Shown here: positions 10,092 to 45,541 of the stretch, piece by piece | Position numbering within the stretch: position 1 is the stretch's first letter | Layout of the letters: every line of letters starts with the position of its first letter | DNA from: an uncultured Angelakisella sp. | Lineage (GTDB): Bacteria; Bacillota; Clostridia; Oscillospirales; Ruminococcaceae | Direction of reading: 5' to 3' | DNA: 64,000 nt | Assembly (NCBI GenBank): GCA_934524965.1 | Contig: CAKSYU010000001.1 | Location: 84,181-148,180 of the forward strand | Translations under genes and position numbers: made by a program | Notes under the pieces: model-generated | What the model was told of the DNA's origin: nothing | What the model saw: only the letters and a program-made list of their open reading frames with translations | The model's database searches: none

Positions 10092-11369
10092 TCAGCTGCC
10101 GATGGTGGGAAGTTCCACTGTGGTTTCCGCTGCCGGAAGCGGCTGGCGGTAGTTGACGAGGAACGGGACATAAAGCGGGAAGCTCTCGGTGCCGTTCAGG
10201 TCAATAACAAGGCGGTACAGCCCTGCCGGGGCTTTGCTTTCGGCGTTGGTGAGGGTGAGGGCGTTTTCTTTCGTCGCGGCGGTAAAGCCCTCGATGACGG
10301 GGATCTCGGTCGTGCCGTCCGTAGGGGCAGTCAACAAGATGGTCTGCCACTGAAGGACTTTGACCTTGATATCCTTCCCGATGTCGTCTTTGGCGTCCTG
10401 CTCGACCGCGGCATAGCGCTGGACGGAGTAGGAGAAGCCGGTCTTGGCGGCGACGGTGAGCGGGTTGGTATCACTGACAGAATATTTGCCGCCGGTGACG
10501 GTGAGAAGCGGAGCGACGGTGACTGCCGAGGCGCTATCCTTGGTCTGGACGATGAAAACGGCGCGCAGGGTAATGTAGGGCACGGCGCTGCCCTCCTCGA
10601 TGCTGCTGTTGCTGTCCCCGGCGGGGGTGATGGGATCGGACGGCGTGGTGGGGGGCGTATCGCCCTCACCGCTGTCACCGTCTCCGCTGTTATTGCCGCT
10701 TTCGTCCTCGCCCTCCGCAGCTGTAACAGAGTCGGCGGTCTCTGCCGACTGGGCGGCGGGGGTATTCTCGGTCCCGGCGGTTTCGTCGGTATTATCTCCG
10801 GTATTATCTCCGGAGTTATCCCCTGTATTATCATCGGGGTTATCGGGATTTTCGGGGTCGGTGGTATCCTCCTTGGCGCCGGTGATCTTCACATCGGCGG
10901 CTTCAAAAACCTCGATGGAGACGGTGTAGGTACCGGCTGCCAGCGTCCAATTGACCGTGTGGGTCTGGGTGTATGTGCTGACAGTACCGCTGACGACGGG
11001 ATCGGTGACGGTTTGAGCCGGATCTTCGCTTTTAGAGGGGTTCAAGATGAACACCTCATCTGCGGAGGAACCAAGTGCGGTGGTAGAGGTGATGCGAATG
11101 ACCTTGGCATCGCTGCCGTCATTGGTGAAGGTGAACGGCAGGGTGTTGCCGGCAGGCGCGGTGACAAGGAACGCCGCGCCATCGGAGGTGAGGAAATTGC
11201 CTGCATCAGTCTGCCCTACTTCGACGGTGAGGGAGCGGTTTTCGGCTGTGTATGTAGTAACAAGCTGTTCGCTGTTGAGATAGCGCGCCAAGGCGGGCGA
11301 AGTGCCGAGGTACGCGCTGACCAGGAACAGCATGGCTGCCGCCATTGCCGCCCATTTTGTTTTTTTCAC
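10092..11369 (-). CDS. Exported two-domain protein with acidic linker (surface locus)
   Basis: A 425-residue exported protein of unknown function. The N-terminus MKKTKWAAMAAAMLFLVSAYLGTSPALARYL is a signal peptide, with ALA before RYL a possible cleavage site. It is followed by a beta-rich domain (about 35-155), an acidic D/N/G/T linker with repeated DNTGDNSGDNTGD units (about 165-255), and a second beta-rich domain (about 260-425) ending in LPTIGS. The R-Y-L after the hydrophobic core resembles the GRYTS of the next gene and the TasA/camelysin type of leader. It is the last gene of the run. Probably an accessory matrix or fibre component (inference). Confidence 0.72.
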   Translation of the reverse strand: MKKTKWAAMAAAMLFLVSAYLGTSPALARYLNSEQLVTTYTAENRSLTVEVGQTDAGNFLTSDGAAFLVTAPAGNTLPFTFTNDGSDAKVIRITSTTALGSSADEVFILNPSKSEDPAQTVTDPVVSGTVSTYTQTHTVNWTLAAGTYTVSIEVFEAADVKITGAKEDTTDPENPDNPDDNTGDNSGDNTGDNTDETAGTENTPAAQSAETADSVTAAEGEDESGNNSGDGDSGEGDTPPTTPSDPITPAGDSNSSIEEGSAVPYITLRAVFIVQTKDSASAVTVAPLLTVTGGKYSVSDTNPLTVAAKTGFSYSVQRYAAVEQDAKDDIGKDIKVKVLQWQTILLTAPTDGTTEIPVIEGFTAATKENALTLTNAESKAPAGLYRLVIDLNGTESFPLYVPFLVNYRQPLPAAETTVELPTIGS

Positions 11370-11405
11370 GGGGCGTACCTCCTTTCGCCTTGGTTTGCCT
11401 GTGTG

Positions 11406-12014
11406 TTATTTGCCGACGACCGGAACAAGCTGAAGCTCCACCGTGCTGAGAACGCTTTCGCCGGTGATGATAAGGGTAAATTCCTGCTTTTTGCTTTCTA
11501 CGCCCTCCATGCTCCAGATGATCTCATCGCCGAGGGGATCTTCCTCATTTTCCTGCGCGGGGTGGAAGGTGTAGACCCAGCCGGCGCCCATCTGGTTCCA
11601 AAGCTCGGTGCCCTCGAGGATCGCTTCCGGCGTGCCGCCGTAGATCTCATCGCCGCTGGAGATGGTAACGCCGTTGGACATTTCGCTGCCGCGGCTGACC
11701 AATACCCTCAGAACATATTCGACCGTTTCCGCATTGACTTTTTTCTGACCGTCGGTATTGCTGACGGTAAACCGAAGCTGGGAATATTCTTTATTCGTTT
11801 CCCAGTCGCCCAAAAGGTTGGCAGGCAAGTTCTGCGCTTCGCCGGCGGCAGTGGAAAGATAAAGGTGGCTCATCTGGCGTGCCTGTAGGGTGGCTGCCGC
11901 ATTTGCCGTAGAAGTGTACCTGCCCATGGTGACGCCGATGCCCGCCACAAGGGTAATGGTGAGGATCAAGCCTGAGATGAGTGCCCACAGGCTGATGTGC
12001 ATTTTCTTTTCCAT
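11406..12014 (-). CDS. Small exported protein, SipW-substrate-like
   Basis: A 202-residue protein with a hydrophobic leader (about residues 7-30) ending VTMGRYTSTANAAATLQ. The glycine-arginine-tyrosine-threonine pattern after the core resembles leaders processed by SipW-type signal peptidases. The rest is a beta-rich extracellular domain with no cysteine. The ATG follows a GGAGAGA ribosome binding site, and the gene lies 18 bases after the stop of the beta-helix gene. By position and size it could be a minor pilin or TasA-like subunit; homology was not tested. Confidence 0.7.
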   Translation of the reverse strand: MEKKMHISLWALISGLILTITLVAGIGVTMGRYTSTANAAATLQARQMSHLYLSTAAGEAQNLPANLLGDWETNKEYSQLRFTVSNTDGQKKVNAETVEYVLRVLVSRGSEMSNGVTISSGDEIYGGTPEAILEGTELWNQMGAGWVYTFHPAQENEEDPLGDEIIWSMEGVESKKQEFTLIITGESVLSTVELQLVPVVGK

Positions 12015-12032: not shown

Positions 12033-14042
12033 TCAGCTGCCGCTTTGGGCGTCTTTGGTCGTGATGACGGTGTAGAAGCCGTCATCGTTTAGCTTGCTTT
12101 GGAAAAGGGCATTGGCAAGATAGTCCTTTACGTTGCTGCTGTAGGTACCGCCGCTGACGGCGATGCGCGCCTTGCGGGTATTGGTATCCTTTTCATCGTG
12201 GTACAGCAGGAGCGCTTTCTGCTTCACAGCGGTGATTTTGGTATTTTCGCCCGTGATATAGACGGCAATATTATCACGCTCGTAGCCCGCTTCCAGATAG
12301 ACCGCGGCGCCCGTATCGGTAAAGCCGTTTTTATTGAACGTCCCTGCCAGCGCCGCTTCCGCGTTGCCGGTAACAACACAGTTATCCAGATAGACCGAGC
12401 CGCCCTTGACGGCGATGCCGGTGCTGCCGCTCAATACGGTGTTTTCCGCCTTCAGGGTACTGTTATCCTGCGGGTGATAGATCGCCGCCGCCTTGCCGGT
12501 GACGGTGCAGCGCCGGAGCTGGATCTCGGTGCCGGCATTGACCTTTTCGCCAAAGCCGGAAATGCCGATATAATTGGGGGCTTTGATGGTGGTATCCTCC
12601 ATGACGCAGCGGGTCTTCTGCGCCGTGGTAGTCCCATTGCCCAGCACCATAACAGCAGGCTGGTTTGTGGAAGAACCGGTGAGCGTGCTGCCGGTGATAT
12701 ATACGGTGGAATCGGGATCGGTGGACTTGCCGTATTCATCGGTGATGTAAACGGCGACACCGGTATTCTCCACCCGAACATTGCTGAGGGTGAGCTGACC
12801 GTTGAGCGAGGCAAAGGCGATATCGCCGGCATCGCCCGATGCCTTGACGGTACCATTGAGGACGGTAAGCTGCGCACCGCTGTTGACACGGAGCATGATG
12901 CCCGCATTGGCTGCCGTAAGGGTGTTGCCGCCCAAATCGAGCGTGATGGGCTGTTGTTTATTGCTGAACTGGATATTCTCTGCCAGCTGCAGATCGCCTT
13001 GCAGCCGGATATAACCGCCCGCTTCCGATTTGAGGGCAGCGACCAGATCATCGGAGTTATTGACCTCCGTTGCCTCAATATTGGCGGTCTCGCCGGTGAT
13101 GGTGATTTTAAGGTCATTGAAAGACGCGCCGTTTTTGCCCTGCTCGGTATCCCACACATTGGCTGCCGCTATTTCCTGTTTGGTGAGCAGGCGAATGGCG
13201 GTGTAGTAGCCAAGGGCAGTTTGGTTATCGTTATCCACGATATAATACTTGGTTTGGTTGACAGGGTCTGTTACGGTATTTCTTTCTGAGAAATTGTTGA
13301 GGTAGCCATCAGTTTCCGAGAGTTCCAGCAAGAACCTTTCAAAATGCTCACCATCAACGGTGGCAAGGTTACCATTCCCATCAAAGGTGGCTTTGTCGTA
13401 ATCGTAAACGATGGGGCGGAGGTACTCCATTTCCACCACGCTGCCATCTGACGCCGGTGTGCTGCTGACACGGACATAATATCCTAAAAGGTCATAGACC
13501 CATTCCCAGTAGATGGGGGTATCGACGGAACAGAAATCATCGGACATGGTAAGCTGCCCCATGCTGAGAACGGTGTAGGGCGCTGCCGTGCCGTTGGTGA
13601 GGTAACGGCGGGCGACAGTCTCCTTTTTGCTTTCGTTTTCTACCGTGTAGGGGGTCTCGGTGTAGAAATAGACGCGCTTTTTCAGGTCACGATCCATATT
13701 CTCTTTGGAGACACCAACATAGATATTGAGCGGGCTTTCGCTGGTATTTTTGTAAGAGACCGGCAGGATCCCGCGCGCGCCAGGCTGAGCGATGACGCTG
13801 CTGCCATCGGTGGAAAGGTCGCCGGCGTTCAGCTCCCACTTTTCCGCCTGAAAGGTGAGAGAGCCGGCTTCCAGCACATTGCTGTACCAAGCCGTGGACA
13901 TGGCAAATAACAGCACTACCGTGACCAGTATTGCTGTAACTGCCAGACCTGCCTGCTTGTAGACCCTTGTCTTCATTTCGGAGACGACATGATCCCTGCT
14001 ATTCTGCTGTTGTTCTTCACGATCCCGCTTAAACACCGGCAT
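12033..14042 (-). CDS. Membrane-anchored beta-helix surface protein
   Basis: A 669-residue protein. A basic, polar N-terminus (about 1-30) precedes one hydrophobic segment (about 31-52) ending in STAWYSNV, a variant of the TYAWF leader seen in neighbours. Residues about 330-630 have the repeating short-strand pattern of a right-handed parallel beta-helix: LDLGGNTLTAAN, LTVLNGTVKAS, LTLSNVRVENTG, VYITGSTLTGSS, LRRCTVTGKAAAIYH, VYLDNCVVTGNAEAAL. Such folds are found in polysaccharide-binding proteins or adhesins; no lyase active site is evident. The start overlaps the upstream signal peptidase gene by 14 bases. Confidence 0.75.
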   Translation of the reverse strand: MPVFKRDREEQQQNSRDHVVSEMKTRVYKQAGLAVTAILVTVVLLFAMSTAWYSNVLEAGSLTFQAEKWELNAGDLSTDGSSVIAQPGARGILPVSYKNTSESPLNIYVGVSKENMDRDLKKRVYFYTETPYTVENESKKETVARRYLTNGTAAPYTVLSMGQLTMSDDFCSVDTPIYWEWVYDLLGYYVRVSSTPASDGSVVEMEYLRPIVYDYDKATFDGNGNLATVDGEHFERFLLELSETDGYLNNFSERNTVTDPVNQTKYYIVDNDNQTALGYYTAIRLLTKQEIAAANVWDTEQGKNGASFNDLKITITGETANIEATEVNNSDDLVAALKSEAGGYIRLQGDLQLAENIQFSNKQQPITLDLGGNTLTAANAGIMLRVNSGAQLTVLNGTVKASGDAGDIAFASLNGQLTLSNVRVENTGVAVYITDEYGKSTDPDSTVYITGSTLTGSSTNQPAVMVLGNGTTTAQKTRCVMEDTTIKAPNYIGISGFGEKVNAGTEIQLRRCTVTGKAAAIYHPQDNSTLKAENTVLSGSTGIAVKGGSVYLDNCVVTGNAEAALAGTFNKNGFTDTGAAVYLEAGYERDNIAVYITGENTKITAVKQKALLLYHDEKDTNTRKARIAVSGGTYSSNVKDYLANALFQSKLNDDGFYTVITTKDAQSGS

Positions 14043-14781
14043 TATGCTTTAATTCCTCCGTTAGTTCCGCTTTTACCTTTTCGGTGATCTCCCTGATCTC
14101 TTCTTCGGTGAGCAGGGGCTGGGCGGCTTCCTCCGCCGCCTGTTCCTCCTCCAGCTCCGCCAGTGCTTTGGCAAGCTCTGTCCGGATCCCCTTTACGCTA
14201 TCCCGCAGCACGATGCCGCAGATGAGCAGAACGGGCAGGACAATGCAAGCCAGAAAACCGATTTTACCGGTGAGCCAAGAAATGAACACGGCAAATGAAC
14301 TCCCTTCCCTGCTGTGCCACACTACTTTGCCAATGAGGTTTGCCGCGGTGATATACTGCGTATCAGAGACGGGGTTGTTGTCGCCCCGTGTCTCCAGAAG
14401 CGGGCTGCCATCGGCATCCTGCCGGATAGCGACCACACGGTGAGTGATTGCCCAATCTCTGGTCTGCGAATTGCGGGAACGGTAGCAGATGATATCGCCC
14501 ACCGCGATGTCCTCGATGGGAGTCTGCCGCGAAAGCAGCAGGGAATTGACCTGCAGGGTCGGCTCCATACTGCCGGTCATGACACGGAACATACTGTACC
14601 CGCCGACGGTGACATACCCCTTGGAAAGCACCTGTGTGACTGTATAGATGCAGAAGATGAGCGCCGCCGCCAGCAGCACCGCTACGGCACGGCTGACGAT
14701 TTTCTGCTTTTTGCCCACTACGGGCGCTTCGGCTTCGGCGTTCTGCTCTTCCGCTTTGATTTCCAGATTATTTTCTTCCAT
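14029..14781 (-). CDS. Signal peptidase I, SipW/ER type, with C-terminal acidic helix
   Basis: A 250-residue membrane protease. TM1 is at about 30-52 and a hydrophobic hairpin at about 160-188. The catalytic serine is S71 in GSMEPT. Instead of the lysine of ordinary bacterial LepB it has histidine H114 in ITHRVV, with acidic residues in TRGDNNPVSD (D134, D140), the arrangement of SipW and eukaryotic SEC11. SipW enzymes process TasA-type fibre proteins, matching the TYAWF/GRYTS leaders around it. The cytoplasmic tail (about 195-250) is an acidic helix rich in E, A and K. It is encoded between a WLEGQD protein and a beta-helix protein. Confidence 0.9.
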   Translation of the reverse strand: MEENNLEIKAEEQNAEAEAPVVGKKQKIVSRAVAVLLAAALIFCIYTVTQVLSKGYVTVGGYSMFRVMTGSMEPTLQVNSLLLSRQTPIEDIAVGDIICYRSRNSQTRDWAITHRVVAIRQDADGSPLLETRGDNNPVSDTQYITAANLIGKVVWHSREGSSFAVFISWLTGKIGFLACIVLPVLLICGIVLRDSVKGIRTELAKALAELEEEQAAEEAAQPLLTEEEIREITEKVKAELTEELKHNAGV

Positions 14782-14784: not shown

Positions 14785-16155
14785 TTAACTGTTCGCTCCT
14801 GCGAGTTGGAGATTGACCGCGAAGCGCAAGTTCTCCGCGGCGCCGGTGCAATCGGCGTCCTGCCCCTCCAGCCAGATGAAAACTCTGATCCGCTGAGGGA
14901 CATTGCGCTGCAACCGGACGATGACGGCATCTTCGGTAGCGCCTGCGGTCTTATACTTTTCCAGATCCGCACCGGCGATGGAACGGGTCTCCTGCGCCAG
15001 ACCGGTGGAAAGCTCTACGCTTTTGGCGAAGAACCGTCCCTTTTGAACCAGGAAGGAATACTGCCCCTGAAGATAGGTGGAGTAGAAATATCCGGCTGCG
15101 GTTTCTTCGTCCATGGCGGCAGCTTTTCCGCCTGCCTGCAGGAGCGCCTTTTGCAGCTGATAATCCAGCAGGCGGGTACCGCCGCTATCCCGCAGCCATT
15201 GGCTGCTTTTCTGCACCGTAAGACGGTCGAAAACCGACTGCTCCTTTTGGTTCAGGTATGTATCCAATCCAATGGGATAGGTAGCAATATAATCGCCGTC
15301 CTGCCCCGACTGCGGGTGGCTGTCAGCATTGGGCTCATAAATGGTGAAGCTGTTGCTGCCGATACCGCTTTGGGTGCTGCTGCCGTCCTTTTCGGCATAG
15401 ATCCCGCGCAGACTTTTGTACTCTGCGGTGCTGCCGCCCTCGGAAAATGCCGTTTGCAGCGCTTCATTATCGGTGATGGGCAGTTCATTGACCAGAAAGC
15501 CGACCCGTGCCGATGCTTCGACCGTCGAGCTGTTTTCATTCAGCGCAAAATTACCCTCCGCGTCCTTTTGGATATCCGGCAGAGAGATGACATAGCTGCC
15601 GGTATTGTCATCGCCTGTACCGGTAGCGACGCGAAGATCGCAATCGCCGGAAGGTGACATGACCCAAAGATCAAAGTAGGCGTAATGGCCCATCTGTTCA
15701 CCCGTTTCGGCAGCCTCTGTGAGATTGGCATATTGCAATGTGGTATCCATGGTAAACCTGCCGACCGGCATAATGGTACCGACCATGGCGCTGCCAAGCT
15801 GCACCTCCCGATCGGCGGAGGTGTAATAGTTGGGTAGGAACCAGTGAACGCCATCTACGGTAGAAACCGGTGCGAGCCCTTTCAGTTCCTTCAGATACTG
15901 ATACTGCCCGCTGGTGGAAAGATTGAGGTTCTCCGAAAACGGTGCGGGGTAATGGATCGTCGTTCCGTTGACCTCTTTGGTCATATCCTCGGCGACCTTG
16001 ATGGTATTATCACCGGCAACCGTGACCCGCAGTCCCTCCAGCACGGGGCTGGAGGACATGGTGAGCCACGCATAGGTGGAGGTGACCGCAACGGTAAGTG
16101 TCATCACGACCATGAGCGCCAACGCGGTGAGCTTCAAAATGTGATTTTTCTTCAC
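14785..16155 (-). CDS. WLEGQD-family exported surface protein
   Basis: A 456-residue exported protein. A hydrophobic leader (about 7-27) ends in STYAWLTMSS, the leader motif shared with other proteins of the locus. A long, mostly beta extracellular region contains YEPNADSH near residue 273, and close to the C-terminus RIRVFIWLEGQDADCT. The protein of 29710-30708 carries YEPNCDRH and RIRLYVWLEGQDIDCT at corresponding places, so the two are paralogues of different length. The gene is three bases upstream of a SipW-type peptidase gene, its likely processing enzyme. Function unknown; fibre or matrix subunit is the working guess. Confidence 0.75.
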   Translation of the reverse strand: MKKNHILKLTALALMVVMTLTVAVTSTYAWLTMSSSPVLEGLRVTVAGDNTIKVAEDMTKEVNGTTIHYPAPFSENLNLSTSGQYQYLKELKGLAPVSTVDGVHWFLPNYYTSADREVQLGSAMVGTIMPVGRFTMDTTLQYANLTEAAETGEQMGHYAYFDLWVMSPSGDCDLRVATGTGDDNTGSYVISLPDIQKDAEGNFALNENSSTVEASARVGFLVNELPITDNEALQTAFSEGGSTAEYKSLRGIYAEKDGSSTQSGIGSNSFTIYEPNADSHPQSGQDGDYIATYPIGLDTYLNQKEQSVFDRLTVQKSSQWLRDSGGTRLLDYQLQKALLQAGGKAAAMDEETAAGYFYSTYLQGQYSFLVQKGRFFAKSVELSTGLAQETRSIAGADLEKYKTAGATEDAVIVRLQRNVPQRIRVFIWLEGQDADCTGAAENLRFAVNLQLAGANS

Positions 16156-16197: not shown

Positions 16198-18051
16198 TTA
16201 TTCCTGCTTGTTTTTGGACTTGCGGGTCTCCTCCAGCATTTCCTGCATGACCTGCAGGCGGAGGGCATCTTCATCGATGGCGTCGTCCTCCCCCTGCGGG
16301 GTGGCGTACTTCGCTTTGTTCCTCGCCAGCTTATTGAGGGTGATCATAATAAGGGCGACGATGAGCACGACCAGTGCCACCGCAATGGCAACATAAACGG
16401 TAAACTGGCTGCCGGTAATGCCCCAGCGGGAGCTGCGACCGGTGACCTGATACTGCTTACCGCTGGAATCGGTAAGGGTGTAATCAGCGCCGTAAGACCC
16501 GCTGAGGCTATCGGGAATGATCGCCTGACGAGGATCGATGCCGCGGGAGTTGATTCCAACATAGTATTTCGTTCTGGCATCGACATTCGCGAGGGAAAAC
16601 CACGCGATTCCATTATCATCAACAAGGGTGGTCTGCAGCGCCTCGTCCTCCTGATACAGAGTGGCATACTGACGCTTGGCATCGGGAACACGGATCCCCA
16701 CCGTGGCATTAAAATCGGTACTGCCGGCAAAGTCCACCTGGTACAGCTTATCGCTTTCGATATCCGGTTTGTCCTTGCCCTCCGCATCGGAAACGGTATA
16801 GTCCAGATCATATTCCTTTTGGGAGAAATCCTTTTTGGTATTGCTGCCCTGCTCCAGCTGCCATGTGCTGCCGCTGGCGGTGGTGATGGTCGTATCGACA
16901 TCTTTTTCCGCCAGCTTGGAAAGATCCTCACCGGAGACGGTGGAGCCGGACAGCTTGACATCGACCTTTACTACGGTCTCATCATTCTTTTTGGCGTTAT
17001 CCACCTTTTCTCCCAGCTCGTTCCAGCCCTCGGAATTGCTGACTGTGCCGGAAATGACCGTCGTGGTACTGGAGCCGATGGAGATCTCGTCCTCCTCGCC
17101 CGCCGCGGAAACATCTTCCAGTGTGCTGTCCTTGCCGTTTATCTTGATATCAAGATCGGTGGTGGTTTTCTCGGTCAGGTTGGAATTTCCGGTATCGGTG
17201 ACGGTGGTGCTTTCCGCGGAATTTCCGGGGATATCCCACCGCGAATTGCTGCCGGAGGACGGCATTTCCCCGGTGGGGCGCACCGCGGTATCCGTGCCGC
17301 TTCCCTGCGGAGGAGTCACATCGGCGGTGCCGTCATAATAGATGGTCTGCAAGTTTTTACAGTCGCGGAAGGAATCCTCGCCGGTGGAGGTGACGGTCTG
17401 CGGCAACGAGACCTCCGTAAGGGAGGTGCAGCCGTAGAAAGTCCAATCCGGCAGGGCAGTCAGCGAGCCATTTACCTCGGCACGGATAAGCGAGGTGCAG
17501 TAGCCAAACGCCACCAGCCCCAGCTCCTCCAGCGAGGAGGGAACCACCACCGAGGTAAGCCCCGTGCAGCGGTAGAAGGCAAAGCTGCCGATGGAGCGAA
17601 GCCCCGCGGGCAGGGTGATGCTGCCCAGCTTCTCACAGTTTTCAAAGGCGGCTTCGCCGATGGAAAGCAGCGCGGGCGGCAGGGCAATGCTGCCCAGCGC
17701 AGAGCAATCCTTGAAGGCGGCGGTGCCGATGGCGGTCACGCTATCCGGCAGGCGCACCGCGGTAAGGGCGGTACAGCCGTAGAAGGCAAGATCGCCGATG
17801 GCGGTAACGCCGCTGCCCACAATAACGGTGGTGATGCTGCCCGCACTGCCGTACCATGGCGGCATGCTGTTATCCGTGTAGGAGGGCAGGGCGCCGGTGC
17901 CGGTAATGCGCAGCACGCCGCCGGAGAGCTGCCACTGCAGCCCCTGCCCGCAGCTGCCCGACTGGGCAGCCGCGGCGGGGGTACACAGCAGTGCCGCAGC
18001 CAGCAGCAGTGCTATGGCAATGCATAATAAACGATGGTGTTTTCTGCGCAT
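16198..18051 (-). CDS. BspA-type leucine-rich repeat protein, membrane-anchored
   Basis: A 617-residue cell-surface protein. A signal peptide (1 to about 28, ending AAAA) is followed by about seven LRR_5/BspA repeats (about 60-245) of the form IGxxAFxxCxxLxxIxLPxxLxxIG. A low-complexity serine/threonine region leads into a beta-rich region (about 280-540). One transmembrane helix (about 547-570) is followed by a cytoplasmic tail rich in K and E. BspA-type repeats in gut and oral bacteria usually mediate adhesion to host or bacterial surfaces. Here it is the only member of the locus with a clear binding-repeat domain, so it may provide adhesion for the structure (inference). Confidence 0.88.
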   Translation of the reverse strand: MRRKHHRLLCIAIALLLAAALLCTPAAAAQSGSCGQGLQWQLSGGVLRITGTGALPSYTDNSMPPWYGSAGSITTVIVGSGVTAIGDLAFYGCTALTAVRLPDSVTAIGTAAFKDCSALGSIALPPALLSIGEAAFENCEKLGSITLPAGLRSIGSFAFYRCTGLTSVVVPSSLEELGLVAFGYCTSLIRAEVNGSLTALPDWTFYGCTSLTEVSLPQTVTSTGEDSFRDCKNLQTIYYDGTADVTPPQGSGTDTAVRPTGEMPSSGSNSRWDIPGNSAESTTVTDTGNSNLTEKTTTDLDIKINGKDSTLEDVSAAGEEDEISIGSSTTTVISGTVSNSEGWNELGEKVDNAKKNDETVVKVDVKLSGSTVSGEDLSKLAEKDVDTTITTASGSTWQLEQGSNTKKDFSQKEYDLDYTVSDAEGKDKPDIESDKLYQVDFAGSTDFNATVGIRVPDAKRQYATLYQEDEALQTTLVDDNGIAWFSLANVDARTKYYVGINSRGIDPRQAIIPDSLSGSYGADYTLTDSSGKQYQVTGRSSRWGITGSQFTVYVAIAVALVVLIVALIMITLNKLARNKAKYATPQGEDDAIDEDALRLQVMQEMLEETRKSKNKQE

Positions 18052-24973: not shown

Positions 24974-25101
24974 CTTTTGCCCCTCCTTTCCCGTTTGGTA
25001 TCCTGTGCCGAAGAAGTATTCATCGCAGCCCACTGCACGGCTGTACTGCCGCATTCAGCGGCTATCCACATTTTTTTCCTCACCGTGCAGTCCCCCTCCC
25101 T

Positions 25102-35334: not shown

Positions 35335-35481
35335 TCTCTCTTACTCCTTTCGAGAATTTGGATATATTTGGCGGAATAGCCCTCCGTCGGGGGTTTTTAT
35401 ATCAATTACGGCGGCGGCAGCATGGAACGGCATCTTCCGCTTCCGCAATATAATATACATTTTGTAATATTTTGTCGTATT
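35335..35481 (-). promoter_or_regulatory. AT-rich leader, possible internal promoter of subunit A
   Basis: Between two genes of the locus a 35-bp AT-rich block (35446-35480) contains TATATT and TATTAT on the minus strand but no good -35 box. It leaves a leader of about 100 bases with a C/G-rich hairpin near 35380-35395. Offered as a possible internal promoter only. Confidence 0.35.
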
Positions 35482-36621: not shown

Positions 36622-36654
36622 CGGAACCCTCCTTTCGCAGTGTTTTTATGATGC

Positions 36655-38115
36655 TTACACCCGTTCCCGCAGCAGGCTGTCACGGATCATCTCGTCCTCC
36701 TCCACGGCAATGCCATTGATGTTGCCAGAGAACATGGTGACCCCCGCAGCCGAAAGCCACGCAGTCTGTTCGGTGCTGTTCACGCCCTTTGCCAGCAGGG
36801 TAATGCCCTCGGCAGCAAAGCAGCGGATCCTGTCATGCTGCATCTGCTCGGTGGGGAGATCCCCCGCCAGACGCACCATGCTGATTCCCAGCTCCTTTAC
36901 CTTTGCCAGCAGCTTGTCCGTGGGGTGGCAGTCCTCCGCCACCAGCGTCAAGCCGTTGCGCAGGTAACGCACCAGCGTTTCGGCAACGCCCTTGCCCGCC
37001 GTCAGAATCAGCTCCTCCGGTACGGTCAGCATCAGCTTGCCGCGCTCGATGGGCTGGTCATCAAAAAGCTGCTCCAGTGCCTTCATGCGGCTGCCCTGCC
37101 GGTAAAAGTCGCCCAGCACCGGCAGAATCACGCCGTTTAAGTGCAGCGTGCAGTTCTGGATCCGCAGCAGCGCGTCCGCTGCCTCATACATCAGGTACAT
37201 GGTTACATCGGCGGTCAGCTCGGTGCGGCGCAGCGCCTCCTCGGTCTCGGCAAGGGTCTGCAATGCCTCGGAATCCTGCACCAGCCCGCTGAACCACGGC
37301 TCAGCATCGTAGGCAAGCACCCGACCCTCGGCATCGACCACCGGGCGGTAGCGCAGCCCCATCGGTCTTTCCTTGCGTTTCACCACCAGCGGAATGGTCT
37401 TGGGCACCGTTAAGGTGTAATGAATGAATTTGTTATAAACGCCGCGGCAGCGGTCACGGGCGTCGTTCAGCACCCGTATCAGCTCCGGACTAAAAGCGGT
37501 ATTCTCCTGCCCGCGCAGCCGGTCATACGCCTCGCTGAAGGGATCCTCGGATTTGGTCTCGGCGGAAAGCCTGTCCAGCTCCTTTGCCAGTCCGACGATC
37601 TGCGCGATGGGGCTGATCTCATTGCCCTTTCTGCCATCGGGGTAGCCGCTCCCGTCCCAGCGCTCCATGTGCTGCTGGCAGGATTCGCGGATCATCAGCC
37701 ACGGGATATTCTCGGTCTCCAGTTCAGCGCCATCCGGACGGTTTCTGTCACGGCGCTTCAGGGTCATTTCCTGCAGCGATGCCACCAGTTGTCTGCCGTC
37801 GGTGGTGTACTTGCGGTAGACTGCCAGTTCCTCCTCGGTAAAGTCCTTCTGCAGGATCTGATACTCCGGCGGCACCAGCGCCTTGCCCAGCTGATGATAC
37901 ATGCCGCATTTGTAGGCAAGGTCGGTATATTCGCCGGTGATCTGCTCCCGTCCCTCGGGTGTATCATGGCAGAAAGAATTGGCGCACGCCTGCACAAACA
38001 GCGCCTGCGTGTAGGCGGCAACACGGACGGATTGCTTGCGCACCTCCGGCGTCAGCCCGCGGAACGCTTCGTCCCAGGATTCATATTCTTTTCGCTTCCA
38101 AGTCTGCTGATCCAC
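36655..38115 (-). CDS. Degenerate HD-GYP plus EAL-like signalling protein
   Basis: A 486-residue cytoplasmic protein. The start chosen is GTG at 38113-38115, after AAGGAGAAAAAAGC. The N-terminal half resembles HD-GYP: YHQLGKALVP (about 73-82) stands where HDxGK is expected, so the metal-binding aspartate is replaced. HMERWDGSGYPDG (about 149-161) retains the GYP motif. The C-terminal half resembles EAL: RYRPVVDAEGRVLAYDAEPWFSG, where EAL reads DAE, and TLLAKGVNSTEQTAWLSAAGVTMFSGNING, the equivalent of AEGVET...GYxxG. Both sites look catalytically impaired, suggesting a cyclic-dinucleotide receptor or scaffold rather than an enzyme. It is embedded in the surface locus. Confidence 0.8.
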   Translation of the reverse strand: MDQQTWKRKEYESWDEAFRGLTPEVRKQSVRVAAYTQALFVQACANSFCHDTPEGREQITGEYTDLAYKCGMYHQLGKALVPPEYQILQKDFTEEELAVYRKYTTDGRQLVASLQEMTLKRRDRNRPDGAELETENIPWLMIRESCQQHMERWDGSGYPDGRKGNEISPIAQIVGLAKELDRLSAETKSEDPFSEAYDRLRGQENTAFSPELIRVLNDARDRCRGVYNKFIHYTLTVPKTIPLVVKRKERPMGLRYRPVVDAEGRVLAYDAEPWFSGLVQDSEALQTLAETEEALRRTELTADVTMYLMYEAADALLRIQNCTLHLNGVILPVLGDFYRQGSRMKALEQLFDDQPIERGKLMLTVPEELILTAGKGVAETLVRYLRNGLTLVAEDCHPTDKLLAKVKELGISMVRLAGDLPTEQMQHDRIRCFAAEGITLLAKGVNSTEQTAWLSAAGVTMFSGNINGIAVEEDEMIRDSLLRERV

Positions 38116-38231
38116 GCTTTTTTCTCCTTGTCGCAATAGCCGCCGCTACCCCAACGGCAGAATTTACCGTTGGGGCTGGCAGAGCTATCGTTTATGTCAG
38201 ATATTTACTAATCTTGGGGAAAGAACGAGCC

Positions 38232-39293
38232 TTACTCATCGTCACTGATCTGGTAATCCACCAGGGGGGTGTTATCTTTCTTGTTCCCCTTGCGGCGCTT
38301 GCCCAGCATAATGGCAACAATGGCAAGAATGACATTCACACCCAGGCTGACGAAGAACAGAATGGGCCATACATGGTGAATGGAGATGTTGCAGTATTCG
38401 CCCTCATATACGGCGTTGGCTTCACGCAGCTTCTCCAGCTCCTCATTCAGCTGGCTGATGATGCTGTTGATAAGTGCAGCACCGTCATTGACCGCCTGCT
38501 GGTCGTTGCTGGTCAGGAGACCCACGCCGTCCTTCAGCGCGTCTGCCAGCTTCATCCACAGGCTGCCCAGCTCCTCGCTGTCACCCAGCTTCTTGGCGGC
38601 GGCGATCGCCTCCTCCAGCAGGGTGTAGTCCATCTCCTTCAGCCCCTCAATGGCTTCCTTCAGTGCCTTGGCGCCGGCATCTACCGCGTCCTGGCTCTTG
38701 CTGTAGCGCAGGTTCAGTGCCTTACCATAGGCTTCCTCTACTACGCTCCAGGTGTCATTGGTGTACTTGCTGCCGTCCAGCTCCTGCTTTTCCTTGATCC
38801 ACTTATTCAGCTCGGAATAGTCGATCTTCACCGCAGGCTCGGTGGGCTGGGTGGGCTGGTCAGGCTGGTCGGGGGTGGGGTCGGGAGTCACACCGCCGCT
38901 GACAACAGTCACGGTCTCAGTGTAGCTGCTGGGGCTGATATCAGTACCATCTACCGAATAGTAATACGAAATGGAAACTGTAATGCTGTCGCCAACTTTT
39001 GCACTGGAAGAAGCGGAAACATCAACAGAAATCCAGAAGGTTGTCGGCTCAGCACTGTAACCAACGGAACCGCTGCTGGTGCCGCCTGATACAGAAGCAG
39101 AACCAACCGAAAGGCTGGAAGAACCGCTTCCATCATAGCTGTCAATCTGAACACCGCATACATCGGAAACGCTAAAGGAAACGCTGGTGGAACCGCCCGG
39201 AGTAACAGTGACTGCCATTGCCGTGACGCTGAGCAGCGAGATCATCAGAACCGCAAGCAGAACGCCCAGCAGAATTTTACTCTTTTTCATCAT
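38232..39293 (-). CDS. Membrane-anchored Ig-like/FIVAR surface protein
   Basis: A 353-residue protein. A signal peptide (1 to about 27, ending AMA) is followed by a beta-sandwich-like domain (about 28-135) starting VTVTPGGSTSVSFSV and rich in S, T and V, a proline/threonine linker (PDPTPDQPDQPTQPTEP), and a helical FIVAR-like region (about 155-290: KYTNDTWSVVEEAYGKAL, DAVDAGAKALKEAIEGL). One transmembrane helix (about 307-331) and a basic then acidic tail follow. It is encoded right after the dockerin protein, so the Ig-like domain may be its docking partner; cohesin similarity is not evident by eye. Two adjacent ATGs follow GAGGTGAT; the second has better spacing. Confidence 0.8.
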   Translation of the reverse strand: MMKKSKILLGVLLAVLMISLLSVTAMAVTVTPGGSTSVSFSVSDVCGVQIDSYDGSGSSSLSVGSASVSGGTSSGSVGYSAEPTTFWISVDVSASSSAKVGDSITVSISYYYSVDGTDISPSSYTETVTVVSGGVTPDPTPDQPDQPTQPTEPAVKIDYSELNKWIKEKQELDGSKYTNDTWSVVEEAYGKALNLRYSKSQDAVDAGAKALKEAIEGLKEMDYTLLEEAIAAAKKLGDSEELGSLWMKLADALKDGVGLLTSNDQQAVNDGAALINSIISQLNEELEKLREANAVYEGEYCNISIHHVWPILFFVSLGVNVILAIVAIMLGKRRKGNKKDNTPLVDYQISDDE

Positions 39294-39307
39294 ATCACCT
39301 CATTCAA

Positions 39308-42300
39308 TTATCGCACCATGGAACTATATTCGTCCCATTTGCCATCGATCCAGTTGTTGATCTTCTGCGCAATCCGAACTGCATCGTTGACCATGATTTT
39401 GCCATCTTGGCTTGCATCTGCCGCCATGGTCTGTGCGCCTTCTTCCAAAGGCACTTTCTGCTGTTCGTCCACCTGCAAAGACTTAACAATCAGCACGATA
39501 TCATTGACCATGACAACGCCATCGCCGCTCACATCGCCCAGAATGATAACGGTATAAACAACCTCCTCGGAGGTTCCGTTATCGGTGACTGCCTTGGCAG
39601 TTACCACGCAGCCGTTGCAAATACGCATTGCGTTCTTGAACTCTTTCAGCTTGCTGAATGTCAGCTGAACATCATCGGCGGTCGCGTTCTCCGGGTGATA
39701 ATTGATAATGGCACGGAACTGCGCCTCGGTAATGCCGTCGGGGCAGGTATCCAGAATGATGTACTTGTTCTCGGTATCGACCTTGGCGCCCTTTACAATG
39801 GTGCCGTCCTTGGTCACGGTCGGGTCGCTGAGGGTCGGAACCTGGTTCTCACCCACCAGCTTCAGGTTCAGGTGCACGGTCACACGGGATTTATAGGTCT
39901 TGGAAAGATCGTAAACGCCGTACTCGCCGGTCTCATATGCGCCGATCTTCTTGCTGCTGCCCGTAATATCCGCATAGCCCAGCGCACGGTACAGCAGGGT
40001 CAGAATTGCGTGATAGGTGTTTTCCAGAGTAATTTCATTGCCCAGCTTCGCGGTATCCACACCCTTGCCTGCCAGCAGCTCCAGCACCTTATCAAAGTCA
40101 ACATTTGCCTTCTTCAGTGCCGCTACCGCATCGGCGGTGGTCAGCGCATCAATGGCTTCCTTGATGGGCTTGGTCTGCTTGGTCTCGGTGTAGGTCTTCA
40201 GCGCCTCCACAAACTTGGTCTGGGTCTCGCCGGTGGTGCCGTAAGCCAGCACGGAAGCCATTACCGCAATGTACTCGGGCTTCTCGCTCATATCCATGCT
40301 GACGTCCAGGTTCGCCTTGCCGTCCACTTTCAGCTTGCCGTCGGTGTAGGTCACGTCCAGTCCGGAAACGGAAGCGTCGTTCACGGTCGCGATCTCACCC
40401 AGCTCCTTGGAAGCGTCCGCCAGGTTCTTCTTGGCTTCGGCATCGCCGCCCACCTTAATGGTCAGGGTGCGGGTATCATACTCCGCCTCGGGGGCAATAT
40501 TGAACTGAATGTAATCGCCCTCGGCGTTGTAGCTGACGGTGGGGTGCCACGCGCCGGTCATCAGGTCCATGGTAAGGATCGTACCGGCTTCGATCTTGCC
40601 AGAAAGGTCGGTAAAGTCGGAAAGGTCAGCCAGTACCTTATTCACCAGACCCTCAATGCCGGTGGCGCTCCAGTCAATGTCGACCAGCTCGTTGACAAGA
40701 TACGCCTTCAGCGCGTCCTTGTTATCCTTGTACGCCTTTACAAGGTCTTCCTTGTCAATGGCGTAGATGCTGTACTCGGTGCCGCTGTAGTTTACCTTCA
40801 TACCGGCACTGGTATAGAAGTTCATCAGCAGATCGTCGGCAAGATCAAGCGCCAGCGTCTTCACGGCGGGCTTCTTCGCCTGCAGCGCTTCCGCCTTCAG
40901 CGTCACGGTGATATTGCCGTTTTCGTCCTCTGCCAGTGTGTAGAACTCATTGCTTACCTTGCCGTTCTCTGCCACATAGCCCTGCTTCAGCATGCCGCTC
41001 ACATCGCCGGTGTAGGTACCCGCGGTAAGCACTGCGCTGCCGGAAACGGTGCCGTTCACCTTACCGGTATTGTTCAGGGTGCTGTCCAGTACGGTCACGG
41101 TGTCATTGGCGGTAATGCCGCCCTCAATGGTCTTGCCGTTCAGGTCAAGGAAGGTGCGCGCGTTGACCGTCAGGCTGTCGGCAACGTCCTTCAGCAGGAT
41201 CGCCACAGTCTTGGCACCGGTGGTCTTCAGGCTCTCGGAAAGATCCTTAGTGTAAACTACCTTATTCGCGCCCTCGGCAGTCGGGTCGATCACAATGGCT
41301 TCGTACTCGTTCTGCTCCACATTGTTCAGCGTCATGCTGATATTCAGCTCCAGCTTATCGCCGGGTGCCAGAATATCTCTGATGGTCTGCTTCACATCTG
41401 CGTCAATGTTAAAGGCGTCCAGCGCGTCCTTGGAATAGGTCGCAATCTTGGCGGAATAGGTGCCGCCGTTGCTCTGCTTATCGGTGATCTCTACCTTATC
41501 GCCCAGCAGATAGTTGATATATCCGCGCAGGGAACGATAGGTGCTGTTATACTGCGCCAGGTTGGAGTTTCCTCCGAACTGGTCTACGGTATTATCCACA
41601 GTGGTCAGGGTCACACGCTCATCGGCAAACAGCGGACGAGCCATATCCAGTGCGTAATCGACCAGCTCGGCGGTCTCAATGCTGGTCACATCGCTCAGCT
41701 CCGCCTTATCCAGCGCCAGCATCGCGGTAAGCGCTACCTGATAGGCACGGTCGGGCAGGGTGCCGCTCAGCGCCAGCGTGCCGTCCTCGGTAAACGCCGC
41801 GTCGACATGCTTCTGCGCACTCTCAATGTTATCATAGGCTTTCTTCAGCTTATCGGGGCTGGTACCGTTGCTTTCCATCGTGATGTACAGCGGAACGGTG
41901 GTTTCTCCGTCCTCGGTACCCAGCGTAATGGTGGACTGAAGCAGCTTGCCGCCCAGCAGGCTGTTTCTGCTCACATTGCTGTCCACAATGACCGTCTCGC
42001 CGTCCAGCGTCATCTCATTGATGGTGCCGTCGGGATTGATCGCGCTCTGGACACCCTCAAGGCTCGCGCCGCTGGCGGAAAGCATATTGATCATTCCGCT
42101 GGGGTAAACCTTGCCGTCCACAAAGAAGTTGCTGTCAGCCAGTTTGATCTCGTTCACCTTACAGTCGGCGCTGATCAGGTAGGAACCGATATTGCTCAGT
42201 ACCTTGGGGTCAAGGCGGCTGCTGATGGACAGTCTCAGCACCACGGAGGAGATCTCACCATTCTGCTCCAGCGCGATGAGATCCATCTGGTCGCTGTTCA

Positions 42301-45300
42301 GCTTGGCATTCAGACCCTTGAAGAACGCACGCAGGCTCTCCTCCTGAACATTTACCTTTGTGCGGGTGATGGTCAGCTCACCATTTACAAACAGGCTCTT
42401 CACCTGCTCCGCGCTAAAGTGGTAGTTGGAGTTTTCGCCCTGAACACCGACCTTCGCGCTGTCGATGTCATAGTCATAGCGGTAGCCCTCCTCGGGCGCC
42501 GCCAGCGTGATGCTCGGGCTCTTGATGGTAAAGGTCTGGTCGTTCTCACCGTCAATATGTACGGTAAAGGTCTTTGCCTCGTAGGTCACTTCCTCTACCT
42601 TCTGGGTATCCAGTACAGTGCCGGCGGTCAGGGTCAGACCGTTTACCGGCGCATAGAAATCATCGCTGATATTCTTCGCGGCGGCGTCGGTATCCGCTTT
42701 CAGTTCTTTCCACAGGTTGTCACGCAGCGTATTCAGGTCAATGATATCGGCTGCGGTCAGCTCGTGGCTCTTTTCGTAGGTCTTGGTGCCGGTCTTGGTC
42801 ATGCCCTCCGCCGTCACCTTTACGGTCACAACGACCATATTGGGCGCCGCGGCGGTCAGTGTGGCGGTCAGTGTCAGGGCGGGGGCAGAGGTATAGCTGC
42901 CGGTATTGCCTGCCAGCGCCTTTACGGCGGCAACAAACTGGATCATATCAGCGGCGGCGCCGTTGGTGCGGATCGCGGAATTGATCTCGGTCGGCAGCGC
43001 ATCTACCGCTTCGTTGATCTTCTGGATCGCGTCATCGATCTTGTCTGCATAGTCCGCGCCGCTCTTGCCGTCTACCTCAATATCGGAAAGCGCGTCCTTG
43101 AAGTTGGGGTCGGCGGAAATGGTCATCAGATAGCCGCGCAGCTTTTCCGCCTCGGTACGGATGACCTTATACTGCTCGTTCTGGTATAGATATGCCAGAC
43201 CGCTCAGCTCGGTGCCGTTCATGTACTCGGTCACATAGTTATACAACTTCAGGTTATCGCCGTTGTAGCAGTTGTTGATGACATTGTCGATCGCCTGCAT
43301 GGCGTCGGTGCCCAGCTTATCGGGGGTGCCGTCCTGCTCGTCGCCCTCCATCATTGTTCTTACCAGCTTCATGTTGGTCTTGTTCAGGGTCTTCAGCTGG
43401 TCCTCTACATCGGTAAATTTCTTCATCGCCGCTTCGTGGCTCGTTGCCTCGGTCAGCAGCGTCTTGGGCAGGTTCATCATCGCCAGCACTTCGCTGCCGG
43501 TCATCGGCTCGTCACCGAAGGTCAGCACATATTCCACCTGCACGCTCTCAAAGGCAGTGGTATTCAGTGTCGCGGTCTCGCCGTTAAAGGAAGCGGTCGC
43601 CGCCGCGCTGCCGTTCAGAACGGCTTTCGCGGTCACGGGCTTCCAGCTCAGCCCCGCGTACTTCGCGCTGTACTCCTTGGCGGTCACCGTGGTGGTACCG
43701 TTCGCGTTCAGCGTCAGGCTTACCAGGTTATCGCTGTTCTCCGGCACGCGTACTCTTACAATGGTATCGTTGGGGGTCAGAATAGCGCTATTCAGCACAT
43801 TCTTCTCCTCGGCGGTCAGTCCGGCGGCAGCCTTCGCGGTCAGCTCGCCCAGACCATACCCCGTGCGGGTCTTATCCATCTCTCTGGTAAAGACGGTATC
43901 GCCCACCACGCGGTACACGGTACCCTCGTCATAGGTCTCCTCACCCAGCTTATACTGGTAGGACTGCCCCTCGGCGGCGCACACAGGCAGGGTCACACGG
44001 TAGCCGTAGGGCACCGTGTGGACGCCCTCGCCGTCGCCCAGCGAATAGCTCACATTCTTTGGGGTATAGCTTACTACATAGGTCACATCACCGGTCAGCG
44101 TCTCGCCGAAGTCGGTCACGGTGCGGTTGTAGTGTGCGGTGCCCACATCGAAGACCTTCCATGTCTCCAGCACTTCCGCCTCGTTCACCTTGGCGGCAAT
44201 CGCTGCCTCTACCTCCGCCTTTGTGGTGCCGCTGCGCAGCGTCACCTTCCACTCGGAGGGATAATTGAGCGTAGTCAGCACATCGCTGTCAATGGTTTTG
44301 GCGGTAATGACCTTCGCTTCATATTTCACCGTTACATTAAAGCGGTTCACATTGGCGCTCACAGTGGTATTCAGCGTTCTTACCGCCTTCTCCACGGTGA
44401 TGTCGCTGCCATGCAGGCTGCTCTGCCCGTTTGCGGCAAAGGCAAGCGTCTCCAGCGCGCTGTAGTCAGCGTCCGCCAAATCGGTTCTTGCCACGGTCTG
44501 GTTCAGCACCAGCCACTCGTCCTCTACCGCAGGCTGGATCTTGGTGCACACGGTGCCCAGGTACTCGGTCGCCTTCTGGATCGTCTTCGCCTTGGTAAGC
44601 GTATCCTCGTCTATCTCGGCGCCGCTCTCGCTCAGGCTTATCACAGTAGAAGCCACGCCGTACAGCGTGCCGGTATCCTTATTGGAGAGCGCGGAAATAT
44701 CGCTGTAATACTGCGCGGCAACTTCCTTCATTACGCTGCCGTCGTTCAGCAGATACTTCATTTTTCCGGTGCTGTACTTGCCCAACTCCACATTGATATC
44801 CAAAGAGCCGTTGTTCTTATCGATCTGCGCCTTCAGGTCATCGATGGCATTGGCGGTCGCAGAGCCTTCTCTGACTCGGAGGGTCGTTGTATTCGTGCCG
44901 AACTTGAACTGCGCGCCATTCATTCTAAAGTCATACAGCGCGTCAAAATACTGTTCCAGCAGCGTCGCAGCGCCGGATTCATGGTCCAGTGTCTCGATAT
45001 TGGAAAGTCCCTTCGCCAGCATATAGGGGATATTCAGCAGCAGGGACTGGGTCGCCTCGTCGAGCTCCACCGTCGCCGTATAGTCCACCTCTACGCTGTA
45101 GGTATTGCCGACATAGGCAAAAGACCCCGTATAACCGGAGCTTCCCTTTGTCAGCGCTACCGCCTCAGCAGCGGAACCGTCCTCCGGCACAATACGCGCA
45201 CCGGTCGGTTCCCATGTATAGCCGTCTTTGGCAATACTCTTCGCGGTAACGGTCTTCGCCGTCTCATCTACCGCGATCAGATCATCGCCCTCCGACGGTG

Positions 45301-45541
45301 CGGTGTAGGTCACGCTGCCGCCGGTCAGATAACCGGACTTCAGCACAGCCTGCTCCGCTGCGGTCAATTTGGCACTGTAGGCGTCTGCCACCAGCTCGCC
45401 CGCTGTTACCGTTTGCTTGTTGCCGGCAGGCACTTCTGTGTCGACCGCCGCGGCGAAACAGTTAACGGAACTGCTGAGAACCGTTACTACCGCCAGCAGC
45501 ATCGCCAAAAAGCGCTTGGATGCCGGTACATTCCCCTTCAT
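39308..45541 (-). CDS. Giant secreted protein with C-terminal dockerin
   Basis: A 2077-residue secreted protein, first gene of the surface locus. A signal peptide (1 to about 31, ending CFAAA) is followed by a beta-rich module (from about 57: LTAAEQAVLKSGYLTGG...) that recurs from about 573 (LTAEEKNVLNSAILTP...), each with a helical tail. Many further beta-rich regions without recognisable enzyme motifs follow. The C-terminus (about 2000-2065) is a type I dockerin: two calcium-loop repeats, GDVSGDGVVMVNDIVLIVKSL and ADASQDGKIMVNDAVRIAQKI. Dockerins bind cohesins, classically in cellulosomes. There is no TYAWF leader, so ordinary Sec export is expected. Probably a scaffold or surface-exposed fibre head (inference). 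Confidence 0.85.
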   Translation of the reverse strand: MKGNVPASKRFLAMLLAVVTVLSSSVNCFAAAVDTEVPAGNKQTVTAGELVADAYSAKLTAAEQAVLKSGYLTGGSVTYTAPSEGDDLIAVDETAKTVTAKSIAKDGYTWEPTGARIVPEDGSAAEAVALTKGSSGYTGSFAYVGNTYSVEVDYTATVELDEATQSLLLNIPYMLAKGLSNIETLDHESGAATLLEQYFDALYDFRMNGAQFKFGTNTTTLRVREGSATANAIDDLKAQIDKNNGSLDINVELGKYSTGKMKYLLNDGSVMKEVAAQYYSDISALSNKDTGTLYGVASTVISLSESGAEIDEDTLTKAKTIQKATEYLGTVCTKIQPAVEDEWLVLNQTVARTDLADADYSALETLAFAANGQSSLHGSDITVEKAVRTLNTTVSANVNRFNVTVKYEAKVITAKTIDSDVLTTLNYPSEWKVTLRSGTTKAEVEAAIAAKVNEAEVLETWKVFDVGTAHYNRTVTDFGETLTGDVTYVVSYTPKNVSYSLGDGEGVHTVPYGYRVTLPVCAAEGQSYQYKLGEETYDEGTVYRVVGDTVFTREMDKTRTGYGLGELTAKAAAGLTAEEKNVLNSAILTPNDTIVRVRVPENSDNLVSLTLNANGTTTVTAKEYSAKYAGLSWKPVTAKAVLNGSAAATASFNGETATLNTTAFESVQVEYVLTFGDEPMTGSEVLAMMNLPKTLLTEATSHEAAMKKFTDVEDQLKTLNKTNMKLVRTMMEGDEQDGTPDKLGTDAMQAIDNVINNCYNGDNLKLYNYVTEYMNGTELSGLAYLYQNEQYKVIRTEAEKLRGYLMTISADPNFKDALSDIEVDGKSGADYADKIDDAIQKINEAVDALPTEINSAIRTNGAAADMIQFVAAVKALAGNTGSYTSAPALTLTATLTAAAPNMVVVTVKVTAEGMTKTGTKTYEKSHELTAADIIDLNTLRDNLWKELKADTDAAAKNISDDFYAPVNGLTLTAGTVLDTQKVEEVTYEAKTFTVHIDGENDQTFTIKSPSITLAAPEEGYRYDYDIDSAKVGVQGENSNYHFSAEQVKSLFVNGELTITRTKVNVQEESLRAFFKGLNAKLNSDQMDLIALEQNGEISSVVLRLSISSRLDPKVLSNIGSYLISADCKVNEIKLADSNFFVDGKVYPSGMINMLSASGASLEGVQSAINPDGTINEMTLDGETVIVDSNVSRNSLLGGKLLQSTITLGTEDGETTVPLYITMESNGTSPDKLKKAYDNIESAQKHVDAAFTEDGTLALSGTLPDRAYQVALTAMLALDKAELSDVTSIETAELVDYALDMARPLFADERVTLTTVDNTVDQFGGNSNLAQYNSTYRSLRGYINYLLGDKVEITDKQSNGGTYSAKIATYSKDALDAFNIDADVKQTIRDILAPGDKLELNISMTLNNVEQNEYEAIVIDPTAEGANKVVYTKDLSESLKTTGAKTVAILLKDVADSLTVNARTFLDLNGKTIEGGITANDTVTVLDSTLNNTGKVNGTVSGSAVLTAGTYTGDVSGMLKQGYVAENGKVSNEFYTLAEDENGNITVTLKAEALQAKKPAVKTLALDLADDLLMNFYTSAGMKVNYSGTEYSIYAIDKEDLVKAYKDNKDALKAYLVNELVDIDWSATGIEGLVNKVLADLSDFTDLSGKIEAGTILTMDLMTGAWHPTVSYNAEGDYIQFNIAPEAEYDTRTLTIKVGGDAEAKKNLADASKELGEIATVNDASVSGLDVTYTDGKLKVDGKANLDVSMDMSEKPEYIAVMASVLAYGTTGETQTKFVEALKTYTETKQTKPIKEAIDALTTADAVAALKKANVDFDKVLELLAGKGVDTAKLGNEITLENTYHAILTLLYRALGYADITGSSKKIGAYETGEYGVYDLSKTYKSRVTVHLNLKLVGENQVPTLSDPTVTKDGTIVKGAKVDTENKYIILDTCPDGITEAQFRAIINYHPENATADDVQLTFSKLKEFKNAMRICNGCVVTAKAVTDNGTSEEVVYTVIILGDVSGDGVVMVNDIVLIVKSLQVDEQQKVPLEEGAQTMAADASQDGKIMVNDAVRIAQKINNWIDGKWDEYSSMVR

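Follow-up and report, generated by a model that had tools for sequence, protein, structure and literature searches.

What does a membrane-anchored relative of the restriction protein McrB do in the midst of genes for exported proteins? The question is raised by a stretch of 64,000 nucleotides (nt) from an uncultured Angelakisella sp. (contig CAKSYU010000001.1, positions 84,181 to 148,180; hereafter the window), which carries 17 minus-strand genes in a row, g1 to g17, with short spacers (Table 1). Among them are the genes for the McrB-like AAA+ ATPase (g9), a DUF2357 protein (g10), two SipW-type signal peptidases (g8 and g14), a degenerate HD-GYP/EAL protein of the cyclic di-GMP (c-di-GMP) type (g3), a membrane-anchored relative of the exported subunits (g4) and the subunits themselves, the main family of which includes g7 (T3) and g13 (T4). 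On balance, it appears somewhat likely that the locus encodes one c-di-GMP-linked, SipW-processed surface-assembly machine, building a fibre or coat, with a McrBC-type membrane NTPase. The block is general and not private to this genome, and by its sequence the locus fits the published description of CoCoPALM, a system named in one paragraph of an earlier study (eLife 2024, PMC11090510).

Conservation of the gene block

A contig scan with g9 retrieved at least 558 relatives. The analysis used the 80 best loci, with flanks of at most 10 kilobases (kb) on each side; many contigs or flanks end sooner, and genes far from the ATPase are undercounted in this set. Matches to the window proteins were obtained for g9 in all 80 loci, g10 in 78, g8 and g14 in 77 each, g4 in 71, g7 in 57 and g13 in 47, followed by g5 (33), g3 and g6 (26 each), g11 (23), g15 (15), g2 (12) and g16 (8 by phmmer, 19 by profile). 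Related subunits cross-match, and some of the g7 matches are sister subunits; g4 in the strict sense, with a profile score above that of T3, occurs in 63 loci. A core place for the dockerin scaffold named in the first-pass annotation is not supported: g1 was matched in 3 of the 80 loci, g12 in 4 and g17 in none within the 10-kb flanks, by which all three are undercounted.

The DUF2357 gene lies downstream of the ATPase gene on the same strand wherever it was found (78/80 loci, gaps of -11 to 840 nt), and the remaining two loci, L020 and L039, stop at a contig edge. In L054 a SipW gene sits between the two. A SipW match is present in 77 loci, with none found in L036, L048 and L076. A frequent order is (HD-GYP/EAL)-g4-T3-SipW-ATPase-DUF2357-(T4)-SipW-further exported proteins, and the core of the gene set is confirmed to recur beyond chance across these ATPase-fetched loci, in an order that varies by lineage. 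Cultured species are represented as well, by Anaerosporobacter faecicola, Ruminococcus albus and R. flavefaciens.

A sample of 291 Clostridia genomes, drawn evenly from the class regardless of the ATPase, was also searched. Matches to g9 occurred in 27 genomes at E<=1e-10; 15 of these reached E<=1e-80, the next best being 1e-29, and these 15 were set against the other 276 (Fisher p values are uncorrected for kinship). DUF2357 was found in 14/15 versus 1/276 genomes (p 9e-22), SipW over the TIGR02228 cut-off of 51.85 bits in 13/15 versus 60/276 (p 4e-7), g4 at E<=1e-8 in 11/15 versus 0/276 (p 5e-17; one match, in G175, runs through 11 stops and was counted as given) and T3 in 12/15 versus 2/276. 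The two T3 outliers are G048, taken up below, and G221, whose match on reading appears to be to the leader of a camelysin-like protein. In 12 of the 15 genomes a SipW gene lies within 5 kb of the ATPase gene on the same contig. Among the 15, G205 and G222 are deep branches with no SipW nearby, and the ATPase of G111 is truncated by a contig end. In a phylum-wide sample the ATPase was found in 0/298 genomes besides the centre at E<=1e-60. The expected co-occurrence of ATPase, DUF2357, SipW and TYAWF-leader genes as a block was thus seen both in the ATPase-selected loci and in the 291 genomes.

These counts bear on the simplest alternative, an ordinary SipW-TasA biofilm operon with the ATPase pair as an accidental neighbour. 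SipW does occur without the pair, in the 60 genomes mentioned; the proposal is nevertheless highly improbable because of the distributions of g4 and DUF2357, and the co-occurrence, the gene order and a fusion of DUF2357 to SipW (see below) argue against it too.

The ATPase-DUF2357 pair

Profile searches showed that g9 resembles McrB chains in the PDB. It possesses a single transmembrane (TM)-like segment followed by a basic stretch, an FtsB-like TM segment with a coiled coil being the CoCoPALM feature. Its NxD motif reads GTINNDD, and NNDD is kept in 81 of 82 ATPase open reading frames (ORFs), that of the window included. A protein search gave at least 8000 matches, with identities of 72-100% among the 120 matches listed. 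No DNA-binding specificity domain was found on g9 in the Pfam scan, the TM anchor being there instead. In g10, DUF2357 is the sole Pfam match and no McrC-type nuclease domain (PD-(D/E)xK) was detected. Pfam analysis of relatives identified DUF2357 alone in L142 and DUF2357 with a signal peptidase in L047, again with no nuclease, and two relatives of only 382 and 443 amino acids (aa) leave little room for one. Coiled-coil-rich PDB chains, TolA among them, are matched by the tail of the g10 family (about 370-612 of the profile); matches of the whole g10 family were set aside as owed to this coiled-coil-like tail, and the N-terminal DUF2357 part gave no meaningful match in the PDB profile search.

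Judged by sequence, g9 and g10 are a McrBC-type pair. The first-pass annotation did not recognise the coupling of SipW peptidases and their substrates to an AAA+/DUF2357 pair and a dockerin scaffold; the pair itself matches CoCoPALM as described in the relevant passages of PMC11090510, in its NxD McrB-like NTPase with a TM segment, its McrC homologue with a coiled coil, and the associated signal peptidase genes. No follow-up to CoCoPALM beyond that paper and its preprint was found in a literature listing by title.

The same passages present CoCoNuT, the sister group of CoCoPALM, as a predicted defence system (PMC11090510). Furthermore, the PADLOC candidate PDC-M26A is matched by g9 (1.1e-44) and by the plasmid ATPases of both L101 and L102, and the operons of plasmid relatives (Pseudanabaena, Polaromonas, Deinococcus) hold other AAA-domain genes, one with a helicase-related gene. 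The pair could on these grounds be an anti-phage defence living in or guarding a surface operon, with the surface proteins as receptors, decoys or effectors. This is considered distinctly unlikely, given the absence of a Pfam nuclease in g10 and the short g10 relatives, and given the tight linkage to SipW, g4 and T3 at a site that looks chromosomal, since methionyl-tRNA synthetase and TatD genes lie near the locus. One scan of viral contigs with a single protein, which reaches close relatives only, returned two pattern matches and no relative.

In the ATPase tree a branch with support 100/69 has the surface-type ATPases on one side; G205 and G222 follow, and the plasmid rows lie further out. 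Long branches underlie the joins of the plasmid rows and of L093 and L094, and the group labels are author-set. The tree would fit descent from a defence-type McrBC pair, the direction being unproven. On reading, the plasmid operons L101, L102 and L103 show CxxC-rich C-termini. Next to ribosomal protein genes in L142 (2262-11603), a DUF2357 gene has a membrane-anchored ATPase on either side; these genes adjoin one for a 1383-aa membrane protein with a transglutaminase-like domain, and no SipW was found in this stretch.

Two classes of SipW peptidase

Both g8 and g14 exceed the TIGR02228 cut-off, in agreement with the two SipW-type peptidases first proposed, and both fall under the cut-off of 190 for the SipW model NF046067 (111.9 and 68.4 bits, respectively). 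Reading of g8 identified the motifs of the serine (TESMYPT) and the histidine (NTHRI). A tree was built from 124 SipW domains, 64 of them encoded upstream of the ATPase and 60 downstream or fused. The two sets separate, with 2 label changes versus about 41.6 in shuffles (a quick method, with 43 of 121 forks open); two peptidase classes have therefore held their places. A C-terminal SipW domain is carried by 5 of the 78 DUF2357 ORFs (L038, L046, L047, L071 and L080, from Ruminococcus or Oscillospiraceae), that of L047 having been checked with NCBIfam and Pfam. A literature search found no paper linking SipW with DUF2357.

The fusion places the regulator on the peptidase itself, and AAA+ proteins frequently act as unfoldases. 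Both points suit a quality-control role, in which the pair would pull out stalled SipW substrates or turn the peptidases on and would not power assembly. Such a role appears unlikely: in the sample of 291, g4, a membrane-anchored subunit relative, turned up solely in genomes that have the ATPase, and genomes with SipW and TasA/camelysin proteins manage without the pair.

Exported subunits and TasA/camelysin

TYAWF-like leaders are present in six proteins (g5, g6, g7, g11, g13 and g15; motifs in Table 1), and the leaders of g16 and g17 differ from this type. The first-pass count of at least eight exported or anchored proteins stands, with about 12 of the 17 on reading besides the peptidases and the ATPase; the claim that they all share the leader does not. 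In a subunit alignment (A2) the leader reads T/S-Y-A/T-W-F in most rows, with the tryptophan in 70/70. T3, T4 and g4 have a common C-terminal WLEGxD motif and homologous cores (g4 core against T3 core, hhalign 98.3%). No meaningful match was obtained with g4 in the PDB profile search.

The TasA/camelysin family PF12389 had matches in 22/24 SipW genomes chosen among those lacking the ATPase (21 over the cut-off) versus 0/6 with it, which argues against the ordinary SipW-TasA operon introduced above. Among the 17 locus proteins the Pfam scan found none at E<=0.1. In that operon's favour, the leaders of these PF12389 proteins share the xAWF type of the subunits here, and the alignments of T5, T6 and a Lachnospiraceae subunit family to the TasA profile extend 30-50 columns past the leader. 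T3 aligns with the TasA-type profile over the leader only (45 columns, 94.6%). The values for g4 (67.6% over 171 columns), T5 (96.2% over 89), T6 (93.0% over 83) and the Lachnospiraceae family (95.8% over 73) become 1.3%, 8.7%, 1.9% and 1.3-8.7%, respectively, without the TasA leader. Kinship of the subunit cores with TasA is unproven, because the alignments that run past the leader collapse once the TasA leader is removed. Of the proposed relation to TasA and camelysin, the common leader type is upheld and the core likeness is unproven, the main family (T3) sharing the leader only and the others aligning a little beyond it. In G291 and G174, 12 and 13 PF12389 matches were observed, respectively, many in long open frames.

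Genes linked to c-di-GMP

The HD-GYP domain of g3 is degenerate, with the motifs HQLGK and HMERWDGSGYP. Among the 56 loci that have g4 and at least 1.3 kb upstream of it, 42 carry a gene of the HD-GYP or EAL type no more than 70 nt from g4. In the group of the window these are mostly degenerate HD-GYP with EAL, in Lachnospiraceae motif-complete HD-GYP and in the Ruminococcus group EAL alone. At the same place, two deep branches have GGDEF-EAL plus EAL genes (L144) and genes with PilZ and HD domains (L145), respectively. Rfam gave no match in the window at gathering scores, and therefore no known c-di-GMP riboswitch is present there. An Rfam scan of six relatives identified one fluoride riboswitch.

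Proposed mechanism

In the surface-assembly machine favoured here, g8 and g14 would process the exported subunits at their TYAWF-type leaders, and g4, as a homologue of T3, is the probable base from which the structure starts. g9 and g10 may form a McrBC-type ring at the inner membrane face, DUF2357 activating the NTPase, so that NTP hydrolysis, apparently without a nuclease, would drive or gate the release of processed subunits and their assembly into a fibre or coat. Proteins of the c-di-GMP type such as g3, linked genetically to the block, may control the machine, and the giant, leucine-rich repeat (LRR) and dockerin proteins would be lineage-specific tips or adhesins. That the product is an extracellular fibre is an inference. 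A more specific form of the proposal is put forward tentatively and falls short of likely: a nuclease-less, membrane-anchored motor of the McrBC restriction type would be the engine of a separate Clostridia surface-fibre machine with two dedicated SipW peptidases, a membrane-bound starter subunit, c-di-GMP control and a main subunit without a detectable TasA-like core.

Several observations weigh against this interpretation. L036, with full flanks, has the ATPase and DUF2357 and no SipW was found there; in L142 and L143, membrane ATPases occur with DUF2357 and no SipW near. In G048 (L146, 5510-8621), a divergent SipW-like gene accompanies T3-like genes and giant ORFs, with no ATPase pair in the 13 kb read, that is, the same operon kind minus the motor. 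The HD-GYP/EAL gene is lacking at 14 of the 56 loci, and a candidate defence model fits relatives from outside Clostridia. With the leaders cut, T3 cores lack similarity to TasA/camelysin (hhalign 0.4-0.5%), and they resemble no solved structure in the PDB profile search.

If the mechanism is true, a defence-type NTPase has been turned to surface building, which would link restriction systems with cell-surface biogenesis. What CoCoPALM does can be tested directly in isolates, given that the gene set recurs and that g4 occurs nowhere in the sample but beside the ATPase; the block occurs in cultured species, and the ATPase in 15 of the 291 sampled Clostridia genomes.

Organisation of the locus

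The run of 17 consecutive minus-strand genes with short gaps or overlaps is as first described. From g1 to g17 the intergenic distances are 14, 95, 33, 147, 256, 65, 67, 64, 46, 47, 25, 42, 3, -14, 18 and 36 nt (range -14 to 256 nt). Pfam agrees with the domains initially assigned to g1 (dockerin), g3 (HD-GYP/EAL), g9 (AAA_5), g10 (DUF2357) and g12 (BspA LRR). Scans of positions 26900-46300 gave 13 candidate promoters versus 11.5 expected and 25 candidate terminators versus 20.2 expected. Just past the locus, a plus-strand gene at 9463-10005 encodes a podophage fibre gp80 domain protein (PF23140, 55.2 bits); it is adjoined by a 757-aa ORF (7175-9448) without a Pfam match.

Table 1. Genes of the locus, in window coordinates.
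Gene	Predicted product	Position	Strand	Evidence
g1	Secreted 2077-aa protein, C-terminal dockerin	39308..45541	-	Dockerin_1 25.7 bits (cut-off 22.9); hydrophobic N-terminal segment 11-29
g2	Exported, C-terminal TM anchor	38232..39293	-	Hydrophobic segments 7-25, 311-329
g3	Degenerate HD-GYP + EAL, c-di-GMP type	36655..38136	-	Pfam HD_5 56.8 bits, EAL 33.6 bits
g4	Membrane-anchored, apparently uncleaved subunit relative	35482..36621	-	TM-like 111-145; core homologous to T3
g5	Exported subunit	33226..35334	-	TYAWF leader at residue 40; same family as g6, g11
g6	Exported subunit	30774..32969	-	SYAWF leader at residue 36; same family as g5, g11
g7 (T3)	Subunit	29710..30708	-	SYTWF leader; WLEGxD motif
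g8	SipW-type signal peptidase, class found upstream of ATPase	28617..29642	-	TIGR02228 94.2 bits
g9	Membrane-anchored McrB-like AAA+ NTPase, NxD motif	26975..28552	-	AAA_5; TM-like 59-77; McrB chains in PDB
g10	DUF2357 (McrC N-terminal domain) + long coiled-coil-like tail	25102..26928	-	PF09823 29.9 bits
g11	2325-aa giant exported protein	18077..25054	-	TYAWI leader at residue 68; kin of g5, g6
g12	BspA-type LRR protein, C-terminal TM anchor	16198..18051	-	LRR_5 191.4 bits; TM-like 554-572
g13 (T4)	Subunit	14785..16155	-	TYAWL leader; same family as g7
g14	SipW-type signal peptidase, class found downstream of ATPase	14029..14781	-	TIGR02228 89.1 bits
g15 (T5)	Exported	12033..14042	-	STAWY leader; weak pectate-lyase-like adhesive domain match, PF20585 21.7 bits (below cut-off 24.3)
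g16 (T6)	Small exported protein	11406..12014	-	Hydrophobic leader 12-30
g17 (T7)	Exported	10092..11369	-	Leader by reading; not flagged by hydropathy scan

Comparison with known systems

With McrBC Type IV restriction the locus shares the McrB-like NTPase and its DUF2357 partner; it differs in the N-terminal membrane anchor, the setting in a surface operon and the absence of a detected nuclease or DNA-binding domain. The PDC-M26 plasmid operons (L101-L103) resemble it in an NTPase domain that is 35-38% identical, with a DUF2357 gene next to it (Pfam, 2/3). Unlike g9, their ATPases have a long N-terminal stretch ahead of the NTPase domain that on reading looks soluble and coiled-coil-like, and a signal peptidase is absent among their annotated neighbours. 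The dockerin of g1 recalls the cellulosome, whereas Pfam found no cohesin match among the 17 locus proteins. In common with the tapA-sipW-tasA operon, in the parts of PMC9674648 that describe it, are the SipW-type peptidase and the xAWF kind of leader; that operon is described there with no NTPase pair, whereas the locus has one, without a PF12389 match or similarity to TasA in the core of the main family.

The closest likeness is to CoCoPALM, as far as the passages on it in PMC11090510 go: a NxD McrB-like NTPase with an N-terminal TM segment, a coiled-coil McrC-like partner and adjoining signal peptidase genes. Beyond those passages lie the SipW class of the peptidases, the TYAWF subunits, g4, the c-di-GMP genes, the fusion, the two peptidase classes and the dockerin and LRR additions. 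The kind of system has thus already been named; new here are the generality of the block, the DUF2357-SipW fusion, the two place-keeping SipW classes and the HD-GYP/EAL genes flanking g4.

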